From the NCBI RefSeq assembly GCF_002285265.1, contig NZ_NSJB01000001.1, forward strand, positions 434,001-498,000: a stretch of 64,000 bases of DNA, given 5' to 3'. This DNA is from Vandammella animalimorsus. GTDB taxonomy: Bacteria > Pseudomonadota > Gammaproteobacteria > Burkholderiales > Burkholderiaceae_C. Shown here piece after piece: positions 6,582-10,472 of the stretch. A model generated the notes under the pieces. That model saw only the letters and a list, made by a program, of their open reading frames with translations. It did not search any database and had not been told where the DNA came from. The translations under genes were made by a program, and so were the position numbers. Position 1 is the first letter of the stretch. The number at the start of each line of letters is the position of its first letter.

Positions 6582-7982
6582 TCAGGCGGGCAGCCAGAGC
6601 TGGGCCTGCAGGCCGCCCAGTGCGGGGCTGGGGCTGAGTTGCAGCTGGCCGCCCCAGCTGTGGGCGATGTCGGCCACGATGGACAGGCCCAGGCCGCTGC
6701 CGGGCGTGCTTTGGTCGAAGCGCTGGCCGCGCTGGCCGGCGTGCTGCAGGTGTTCGGCGGCGATGCCGGGGCCGTCGTCGGCAATGGTGATGCACAGCGG
6801 CAGGCGGGGCGGGGCGGGGGCGTTGGCGGGGGCCGCCGCCTGCAGCTGGATGTGCACGCGGCGGCTGGCCCATTTGCTGGCGTTGTCCAGCAGGTTGCCG
6901 AGCATTTCCTCCAGGTCGGCGCGGTCGCCGCGCCAGTGCAGGGCCTGGGCGCTGCGGTCGGCGTCGAGCTGCCAGTGCAGGCTTTTCTCCGGGCGGATGT
7001 GCTGCATCAGTTGCACCAGTTGCTGCAGCACTTCGTGCACCGGCACGGCCTGGCGGTTGGCGCCGGCGGCGTGTGCGTCGCCGCTGCTGCTGGTGCGGCT
7101 GAGGTGGCGCTCGATCAGGCCGTTCATGCTGTGCACTTGGGCCAGCACCAGGGGGCTGGGCACTTGCGGGGTTTGGCTGGCCTGCGCGCTCAGCCGCGCC
7201 AGCGGGGTCTTGAGTGCATGGCTGAGGTCGGCGGCGTGGGCGCGGCCGCGCGCCAGCATGCGCGCGTTGCGCTCGAGCAGGGCGTCGATCTCATGGGCCA
7301 GCGGGTCCAGGTCGGGGCCGTAGCCGCTGCCCAGCGCCGCGGGGTTGTTGTCCGCTGTGGATGCGTGGCCTGTGGGCGCTGCATCGTGCATGCCGGCCAG
7401 GCGTTGCTGCAGGCGCGCCAGCGGCCGCAGGCCCCAGCGCACTTGCAGCGCGGTGGTCAGCGCCGCGCCGATGAACAGCGCGCCCAGCCCCATGAAGAGG
7501 ATGCGCTGGATGCGCGCCAGGGCCTGGTCGGTCTCCTCGGCCAGCACGTACACGCGCAGCGTGGCCTGTTGGTCGTCTTGTTCGATGCGGCGCTCCAGGC
7601 CCAGCAGCGCGCGACCGCGCGGGTCGCGGTTGCGCAGCAGGCCGCTGCGGCCGGCGGGGGCCTGGGGTTGCAGGCTGGCGTCCCACAGCGAGCGCGAATA
7701 CAGGGTCTGGCCCGGGGCCTGCAAGACCCAGTACGCGCCGGAGAAGATTTGGTTGAAGGCGCCGCTGGGGGTGGTGTCGCCGTAGCGCCATTGCCCGTCT
7801 GCGCCCAGGCTGAGATGGGCCTGGATGCGGTCGGCGCTGTCGCCCAGGCGCTGGGCCAGGCCGCCGTGCAGGCTCTCGCGCATGCTGGCCTGCAGCAGCG
7901 CGCCCAGCAGCAGCAGCGCCGCCAGGCTGGGCAGCAGGCCCAGGGCCAGCAGGCGGGCCGTCAGCCCCAGGCGCTGCATCAT
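6582..7982 (-). CDS. two-component sensor histidine kinase (PhoQ/QseC-like)
   Basis: 466 residues. Two transmembrane helices (~10-30 and ~160-180) bracket a periplasmic sensor segment. A HAMP-like region follows, then the H-box DLSHALKTPL with the phosphoacceptor His, and an HATPase domain with N-box LGNLLDNASKWA, G1 DDGPGIA and G2 GSGLGLSIV. It autophosphorylates and passes phosphate to the regulator encoded immediately upstream; the genes overlap by four bases (ATGA). Third gene of the unit PepSY protein, regulator, kinase, so the PepSY proteins are likely partners or targets of the signal. The inducing signal is unknown. Confidence 0.92.
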   Translation of the reverse strand: MMQRLGLTARLLALGLLPSLAALLLLGALLQASMRESLHGGLAQRLGDSADRIQAHLSLGADGQWRYGDTTPSGAFNQIFSGAYWVLQAPGQTLYSRSLWDASLQPQAPAGRSGLLRNRDPRGRALLGLERRIEQDDQQATLRVYVLAEETDQALARIQRILFMGLGALFIGAALTTALQVRWGLRPLARLQQRLAGMHDAAPTGHASTADNNPAALGSGYGPDLDPLAHEIDALLERNARMLARGRAHAADLSHALKTPLARLSAQASQTPQVPSPLVLAQVHSMNGLIERHLSRTSSSGDAHAAGANRQAVPVHEVLQQLVQLMQHIRPEKSLHWQLDADRSAQALHWRGDRADLEEMLGNLLDNASKWASRRVHIQLQAAAPANAPAPPRLPLCITIADDGPGIAAEHLQHAGQRGQRFDQSTPGSGLGLSIVADIAHSWGGQLQLSPSPALGGLQAQLWLPA

Positions 7983-8704
7983 GCCGGCCGGCTTTCCTTG
8001 GTGGCGGGGCTGGCGGCCGCTTGCTGCGGATCGACGAGGCGAAAGCCCAGGCCGCGCTGGGTTTCGATGCGGGCCGCGCCGATCTTGCGGCGGATGCGGC
8101 CGATGAGCACGTCCAGCGAGTTGGAGTCCGGGTCCAGATCGCGCGAGTACACGTGTTCGCTGATTTCCGTGCGGGTGACGGTGGCGCCTGGGCGGTGCAT
8201 CAGGTAGGCCAGGATTTTGAGCTCCTGCGCCGTCAGGGCGATGTGCTGGCCGTCCACGTACACGCGCTGCGTCATGGAGTCGTACTCCAGACTGCCCGAG
8301 CGCAGCACGGTGTCGCCGCCCTGGCCGCCCTGGCTGGCCAGCGGCTGGCTGCGGCGCAGCAGAGCGCGCAGGCGCAGCACGACTTCTTCCTGCATGAAGG
8401 GCTTGGTCAGGTAGTCGTCGGCGCCGGCCTGAAAGCCCGCGAGCTTGTCGCTCCAGCGGCTGCGCCCGGTGAGGATCAGCACCGGCATGTGGCAGCCGCT
8501 TTCGCGCCAGTGCCGCAGCACGGAGATGCCGTCCAGCCCGGGCAGGCCCAGATCGAGCACGGCGGCGTCGTAGCTTTCGGTCTCGGCCAGGAAGACGGCC
8601 TCCTGGCCATCGGCGGTGTGTTCAGCGACAAAGCCAGCCTGCGTGAGCACTTGCTGGAGCTGGCTGGCCAGGGTGGCATCGTCTTCGACGATCAGGATGC
8701 GCAT
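7979..8704 (-). CDS. OmpR/PhoP-family response regulator
   Basis: 241 residues. The receiver domain has acidic pocket EDD (residues 7-9), phosphoacceptor Asp in AVLDLGLPGLDG (~51), Thr in LILTGR and Lys in YLTKPF. A C-terminal winged helix (~135-225) carries ALTAQELKILAYLMHR and SNSLDVLIGRIRRKIG, the usual DNA-recognition features of the OmpR class. It probably controls this locus: a TTCAGGC/TTTAGGC direct repeat of 11-bp period lies in the divergent promoter region at 9674-9691. The N-terminal ATG at 8704 directly precedes RILIVEDD, so the start is secure. Overlaps the kinase gene. Confidence 0.94.
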   Translation of the reverse strand: MRILIVEDDATLASQLQQVLTQAGFVAEHTADGQEAVFLAETESYDAAVLDLGLPGLDGISVLRHWRESGCHMPVLILTGRSRWSDKLAGFQAGADDYLTKPFMQEEVVLRLRALLRRSQPLASQGGQGGDTVLRSGSLEYDSMTQRVYVDGQHIALTAQELKILAYLMHRPGATVTRTEISEHVYSRDLDPDSNSLDVLIGRIRRKIGAARIETQRGLGFRLVDPQQAAASPATKESRPA

Positions 8705-8803
8705 GCGGTGATGGGGGTGGATGGGCTGGGCGATGGGGCTGGACGATGGGGTGGATGGCAGCGCGCCGGCGCGCGGTGCAGGCAGCGATGCCGGTGATGT
8801 GGA

Positions 8804-9673: not shown

Positions 9674-9691
9674 TTCAGGCGGTGTTTAGGC
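9674..9691 (+). promoter_or_regulatory. candidate response-regulator box, 11-bp direct repeat
   Basis: TTCAGGC (9674-9680) and TTTAGGC (9685-9691) repeat with an 11-bp period, the usual architecture for OmpR/PhoP-type regulators. The pair sits 10 bases upstream of a weak -10-like CACAAT (9701-9706), so it would take the place of a -35 box for the PepSY gene starting at 9774. The divergent operon encoding such a regulator begins on the other side. By-eye assignment. Confidence 0.5.
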
Positions 9692-9773
9692 AGGGGTTTT
9701 CACAATCGTCCCCATGCCATTTGCAAAGCTGCAGCAAGGCTGCATTCACACCTCTGAAAGAAAGGAAACCCAT

Positions 9774-10472
9774 ATGAACACCGCATTCCCGTTTGCCCTG
9801 AACACTGTGCGCGCCCGCCGCGCTGGCGCCCTGCTGGCCGCTGCGCTGCTGGCCGGCGCGGCGCAGGCCGCAGGCAATGCCTCGCAGGCGCTGCAGGCCA
9901 TGACGGCCCAGGGCTATGTGGCCATCCACGATCTGGAATTCAAGCACCAGCACTGGACGGCCGAGGCCACGACCCAGGGCGGCACGCGCGTGCAGCTGCT
10001 GCTCGACGGCGCCGGCCGCGTGGCCGAAGTGGGCAACCCCGCCAGCCAGGCGCAGATCGCCTCGGTGCAGGACGTGCTGCAGCGCCTGCACAGCCTGGGC
10101 TACCAGCAGGTGCACGACGTGGAGATGGACGACGGCTTCTGGACGGCCGACGCCATCAACCGCCGTGGCGTGCCCGTGGATTTGACGCTGCACCCGGTGA
10201 CGCTGGAGCTGCTCAGCGAGGTGGGCGATGACGAGCGCCACCGGTCGCCAGTTGCGCCGCAGGTGCAGCCGCCGGCCTTGGGCCCGCAGGGCATTCTGCC
10301 GGCCAGCGAGGTGATTGCGCGCCTGCAGCGCGCGGGCTACCGCCACATTCACGATCTGGACTTCGACGACGGCTATTGGGAGGCCGAGGCCATCAACCCG
10401 GCCGGGCTGCGGGTCGATCTGCGCCTGGATCCGCGCACCGGCGCCGTGCTGCGCGAAAAGCGCGACGACTGA
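9774..10472 (+). CDS. secreted protein with three PepSY-like repeats
   Basis: 232 residues from an ATG preceded by GAAAGGAAA. The signal peptide runs to about residue 36 (ALLAAALLAGAAQAAG). Three repeats of ~60 residues follow, each with the pattern GYxxIHDLEF/VEM/LDF, then a W-T/E-A-E/D-A core: HDLEFKHQHWTAEA, HDVEMDDGFWTADAIN and HDLDFDDGYWEAEAIN. The last ends in RLDPRTGAVLREKRDD, a C-terminus of the same type as DPHNAAVLRQKRKE in the divergent gene, which indicates common origin. Periplasmic location expected. Likely target of the neighbouring two-component system because of the direct repeat in its promoter. A strong hairpin terminator follows at 10541. Confidence 0.85.
   Translation: MNTAFPFALNTVRARRAGALLAAALLAGAAQAAGNASQALQAMTAQGYVAIHDLEFKHQHWTAEATTQGGTRVQLLLDGAGRVAEVGNPASQAQIASVQDVLQRLHSLGYQQVHDVEMDDGFWTADAINRRGVPVDLTLHPVTLELLSEVGDDERHRSPVAPQVQPPALGPQGILPASEVIARLQRAGYRHIHDLDFDDGYWEAEAINPAGLRVDLRLDPRTGAVLREKRDD

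Follow-up and report, generated by a model that had tools for sequence, protein, structure and literature searches.

Triple-PepSY proteins, a two-component system, and a predicted palindromic operator in Vandammella: a comparison with DbfQRS

PepSY genes beside two-component systems

In the DbfQRS system of Vibrio cholerae, DbfQ, a small PepSY protein of the periplasm, binds the sensory domain of the DbfS kinase and biases it toward the phosphatase state (Nat Commun 2025, PMC12714742). The dbfQRS genes appear to be positively autoregulated, the pathway is activated by outer-membrane stress, and two-PepSY as well as divergent arrangements have already been noted in P. aeruginosa and B. pseudomallei (PMC12714742). 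The locus considered here, found in a window of 64,000 nucleotides (that is, the whole stretch of DNA analyzed), is similar in that a PepSY gene is linked to, and lies upstream of, genes for an OmpR-type regulator and a membrane kinase, and in that autoregulation is predicted. It differs, however, in that DbfQ, at 135 aa, contains a single PepSY domain whereas the two proteins here, PepSY-A and PepSY-B, have three each, and also in having a palindromic operator of four half-sites, a second predicted regulated site, and an apparently leaderless start. As each protein has three domains, i.e., rather than being a small, single-PepSY protein, the module is better described as a variant than as a plain DbfQRS-like member.

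PhoP/PhoQ of Salmonella and E. coli bears comparison as well. In Architecture I promoters of Salmonella, the PhoP box points at a -10 element 12 nt away and overlaps the -35, with PhoP activating (PMC3335776). The locus here likewise has a GTTTA half-site, an 11-bp period, and a box found 11-12 bp upstream of, and pointing at, a predicted -10. The PhoP box, (T/G)GTTTA-N5-(T/G)GTTTA, is matched in its spacing and second half-site, but the first half-site here is TTCA. The closest solved catalytic domain to that of the kinase is indeed PhoQ, but PhoPQ has no PepSY protein, and regulator and kinase both fall far below curated cut-offs (160 versus 336 bits with the PhoP model, 103.6 versus 497 with the PhoQ model). 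The NCBIfam models closest to the regulator, of PmrA, PhoP, and QseB types, all score below cut-off, and for this reason neither PhoPQ nor PmrAB is used as a name for the pair.

BqsRS promoters contain a pentamer repeat separated by 6 bp, some of them with clusters of four pentamers (PMC4682146). With BqsRS/CarRS of P. aeruginosa (PA2658, PA2659), PepSY genes adjoin the two-component system, and both this adjacency and the 6-bp spacing of pentamers are seen here. The BqsRS repeat, however, is TTAAG-N6-TTAAG and runs in a single direction, whereas the half-sites here are TTCA and GTTTA. The BqsRS kinase also carries an ExxE motif for Fe(II), whereas in the sensory domain of the kinase described here none of the invariant columns is a glutamate. 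Lastly, with UipA/UipRS of Microbacterium, a tandem PepSY protein similarly adjoins a two-component system. That protein is membrane-anchored, actinobacterial, and has two PepSY domains, and a role for UipRS in uranium sensing had not been demonstrated.

Genes, proteins, and their linkage

The features of the locus are listed in Table 1. Transcription on the minus strand would proceed from PepSY-A, the first gene of the operon, through the regulator gene and then the kinase gene. The sequence-only reading had placed the system at 7979-10472, a span which takes in both PepSY genes and the regulator gene but leaves out the kinase gene at 6582-7982. Terminator-like sites are, in number, not above chance in this region.

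Table 1. Features of the locus, with positions as counted along the window
Feature	Position	Strand	Basis
PepSY-A, three PepSY domains, candidate exported	8804..9625	-	PF03413 x3, 98.8 bits; AlphaFold2 three units
OmpR-family response regulator	7979..8704	-	Response_reg + Trans_reg_C
Membrane histidine kinase	6582..7982	-	HATPase_c; periplasmic sensory domain ~residues 30-165
PepSY-B, three PepSY_2 domains, candidate exported, divergent	9774..10472	+	PF13670 x3, 94.8 bits; AlphaFold2 three units
37-bp palindrome, predicted operator	9652..9688	none	kept in 18 loci; 16/401 family genomes vs 0 control
-10 CACAAT, predicted PepSY-B promoter	9701..9706	+	12 bp past right arm; conservation + genome search
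-10 CACCAT, predicted PepSY-A operon promoter	9634..9639	-	12 bp past left arm; genome search + homologue starts
Hairpin + T-rich tail 3' of PepSY-B, probable terminator	10543..10578	+	16-bp stem

Beyond the kinase gene, also on the minus strand (2058-6200), are genes for a TonB-dependent receptor, a thioredoxin-like (AhpC/TSA) protein, and an MFS transporter, with the thioredoxin-like gene overlapping the end of the receptor gene. The receptor and thioredoxin-like genes are not taken to be parts of the system, as they adjoin the locus only in close Vandammella relatives; in the Allofranklinella-type loci examined they were not detected.

That two triple-PepSY proteins flank the two-component system, as had been proposed, holds up well. 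The Pfam scores of PepSY-A (273 aa) and PepSY-B (232 aa) compare with a gathering threshold of about 24 bits, repeats resemble one another within each protein (z-scores of 8-17 in PepSY-A, 13-23 in PepSY-B), and AlphaFold2 models, built from 17 and 15 homologues, respectively, display three helix-plus-four-strand units in each. Resemblance between the two proteins is clear only via the third PepSY-B repeat (z of about 8-9). The ‘closely similar C-termini’ of the earlier description are, that is, real as similarity (13 of 35 positions identical, E = 3e-4), but they amount to ordinary PepSY resemblance. In fold searches PepSY-A matches YpeB, CD1622, YpmB, and UipA, with vibriolysin propeptide structures also among the matches, while the first match of PepSY-B is UipA, but with no match below E = 0.001. 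Every homologue read has a hydrophobic N-terminus that ends in small residues. PepSY-B of V. animalimorsus is 91% identical to the window's PepSY-B, and no further PepSY proteins were found in the 3.1-Mb genome beyond these two. In Allofranklinella-type loci a second PepSY-B-like stretch lies directly 3' of PepSY-B (L006, ~7650-8221; L007, 7683-8147), which suggests tandem duplication.

The sensory domain of the kinase is conserved, with the residues of G-x-YW and SRS-x-WD invariant. A profile of this periplasmic domain was used, by itself, to choose loci across 201 family genomes, and each of the 30 loci so obtained has a PepSY open reading frame 5' of the kinase gene, on the same strand. The upstream protein has three PepSY domains in a close group of these loci and one in a distant group. 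This kinase sensory-domain family, that is, travels with PepSY genes.

The palindrome and the predicted promoters facing outward from it

Comparison of the PepSY-A/PepSY-B intergenic regions of relatives reveals a 37-bp palindrome, TAAAC-N6-TGAA-N7-TTCA-N6-GTTTA. Its four half-sites follow an exact 11-bp period. The minus-strand pair begins at 9652 and 9663 and the plus-strand pair at 9674 and 9685, so that the pairs point outward, one toward each gene. Over 18 loci from several genera, TGAA and TTCA are invariant, TAAA and TTTA are nearly so, and the spacers vary. An exact 37-bp dyad of this kind would be expected by chance about 5e-7 times per genome, yet with at most one mismatch allowed it is present in 16 of 401 family genomes, versus none for a reversed control. 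It is found 5' of the PepSY-A/regulator/kinase operon in all 18 aligned loci, and every copy whose surroundings were read precedes that operon, except for a second copy in the genome under study and in its close relative G151. An order-wide sample yielded the dyad in no genome outside of the organism's own family. Five distant relatives identified by the kinase domain possess instead GTTCA-N6-GTTCA before a -10, at the same spacing, and the type of site therefore appears to be older than the palindrome.

The sequence-only reading had pointed to a direct repeat, TTCAGGC (9674-9680) and TTTAGGC (9685-9691), and both copies are present as described. TTYAGGC is not, however, the conserved unit: TTCA is invariant and GTTTA nearly so, but the GGC after TTCA is unconserved, and an equal, inverted left pair had been missed. 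As a search motif TTYAGGC is uninformative (with two mismatches, 57 genome matches versus 41 for the control, most of these telling little), and the conserved core was used in its place. A regulator site between the genes is thus likely, but in the form of a four-half-site palindrome facing both genes rather than of its right half alone, and so the kinase operon too is likely a target of the regulator. Phosphorylated regulator would be what binds there.

A predicted -10 lies 12 bp past the right arm, with A as its second base and T as its sixth in 18 of 18 loci, and in homologous loci one lies likewise 11 or 12 bp past the left arm. A genome search for a single arm followed by a -10 at the set spacing returns exactly three places (none with the control), namely those before the PepSY-A operon and PepSY-B and one on contig 16 at 64775-64807 (TATCAT). 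The last of these belongs to a second exact palindrome (contig 16, 64753-64789; L052, 6754-6790), with TATCAT as its -10, which precedes a gene for a small, proline-rich, lipoprotein-like product (MNRAFLLAFLVGLGATACGGGSDS..., start at L052 6914) that matches no Pfam family. In G151 the same site is found before the same lipoprotein-like gene. Two additional arm-plus--10 matches in the genus, one within a long open frame and one beside a CRISPR array, were taken to be chance; the array, in a same-genus genome (L102), has GGTTCATCCCCGCGTGTGCGGGGAAC-type repeats.

No independent sigma-70 promoter was found at the locus. Together with geometry like that of PhoP Architecture I, this makes activation likely at both genes, i.e., at the PepSY-A operon as well as at PepSY-B; for the divergent gene, activation had been proposed from the start, and the arrangement of operator and -10 agrees. 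The -10s (CACAAT, CACCAT) nevertheless are weak, and these predicted sites may instead serve repression.

As scored, 17 of the 18 loci have the PepSY-A start codon 6-9 bp past the predicted -10. The exception, L054, was scored on an earlier GTG, and the GTG that follows it also fits this spacing. With so short a distance there is no space for a ribosome-binding site, and the transcript of the PepSY-A operon is probably leaderless. The same spacing favors ATG 9625 as the start in the window; TTG 9634 was set aside, as it overlaps the predicted -10. PepSY-B, with its ATG at 9774 preceded by AGAAAGGAAA, has an ordinary leader.

Proposed partner, proposed outputs, and competing explanations

The gene which is divergent from PepSY-A is PepSY-B in 16 of 18 triple-PepSY loci. 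In L054 it encodes instead a triple-DUF5666 protein (5614-6891), with the palindrome intact, and in L055 a bacterial OB-fold (BOF) protein (5977-6366), with the palindrome at one mismatch. As PepSY-A is constant beside the sensory domain whereas the divergent gene varies, PepSY-A may be viewed as partner and PepSY-B as output. Most likely, that is, PepSY-A is the periplasmic, DbfQ-like partner of the kinase, with PepSY-B probably one among several exported outputs. The suggestion that the PepSY proteins act as inputs to, or inhibitors of, the kinase thus suits PepSY-A but fits PepSY-B less well. Linkage with the kinase across homologues, on which that suggestion had been made to depend, is likewise complete for PepSY-A but lapses in part for PepSY-B.

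The explanation favored here, and which I consider reasonably probable, is of a DbfQRS-type two-component system, envelope-sensing and autoregulated, in which PepSY-A restrains the kinase and the palindrome drives both sides. Exported PepSY-A would bind the periplasmic domain of the kinase and, by analogy with DbfQ, most likely hold it in a resting or phosphatase state, the direction of this effect being taken from that one, distant system. An envelope or cation signal would free the kinase from PepSY-A. Two tandem dimers of phosphorylated regulator, directed outward, would then occupy the 37-bp palindrome and recruit RNA polymerase to the -10 found 11-12 bp away on either side. Expression of the regulator's own three-gene operon should rise along with that of PepSY-B, with the small lipoprotein raised too, via the second palindrome copy. 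More PepSY-A would close a negative feedback loop, and PepSY-B and the lipoprotein would be exported outputs.

A serious though rather unlikely rival has PepSY-A and PepSY-B as periplasmic proteins that mainly bind metal (Fe, Ca, or another cation) under control of a metal-sensing system, with PepSY-A presenting or withholding metal rather than being an inhibitor as such. It is serious because UipA (uranyl, iron) and LanP (lanthanides, calcium) are metal-binding PepSY proteins, with UipA adjoining a two-component system and being as well the first fold match of PepSY-B. BqsS, furthermore, senses Fe(II), and both mature PepSY proteins are net acidic. That net charge is modest, however, no metal site was identified in either protein, the fold matches are weak by whole-protein TM-score, and the sensory domain lacks an invariant, ExxE-like pair of glutamates.

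It is also conceivable, if doubtful, that the two proteins form a matched pair on a symmetric operator, in which PepSY-A restrains the kinase and an induced PepSY-B, acting as a ligand-binding antagonist or sink, resets it. Domain tripling, the palindromic divergent promoter, and a leaderless kinase operon would then provide a tunable envelope-signal switch. Somewhat more doubtful is that both proteins are equal inputs, each binding the kinase, with PepSY-B competing with PepSY-A. Fold and operator are common to both, most triple-PepSY loci (16 of 18) keep both, and BqsRS of P. aeruginosa is accompanied by two PepSY proteins, but only one of those two was predicted to bind BqsS, and two loci have a DUF5666 or OB-fold protein in place of PepSY-B, while PepSY-A is never absent. 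The PepSY name derives from peptidase propeptides, and vibriolysin propeptides are among the fold matches, but that these proteins inhibit a secreted peptidase, with their place beside a two-component system incidental or simply regulatory, is very improbable given that no peptidase gene is seen among the neighboring genes examined and that a PepSY gene accompanies the sensory domain in every one of the 30 loci.

The principle of PepSY-mediated control, with DbfQRS, is already published (2025), and the module, if the favored autoregulated explanation is correct, belongs to that kind while extending it. New, as predicted from the DNA, are PepSY tripling on both sides, the palindromic operator, a small regulon of three promoters, and the apparently leaderless operon start. 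PepSY proteins beside sensor kinases are widespread, and within the literature found the sole demonstrated mechanism is that of DbfQ in Vibrio. With the operator read from conservation, and with a predicted regulon of just three promoters, the module's signal and outputs should be testable using few reporters, while the contrast between a constant PepSY-A and a replaceable PepSY-B serves to separate partner from output.
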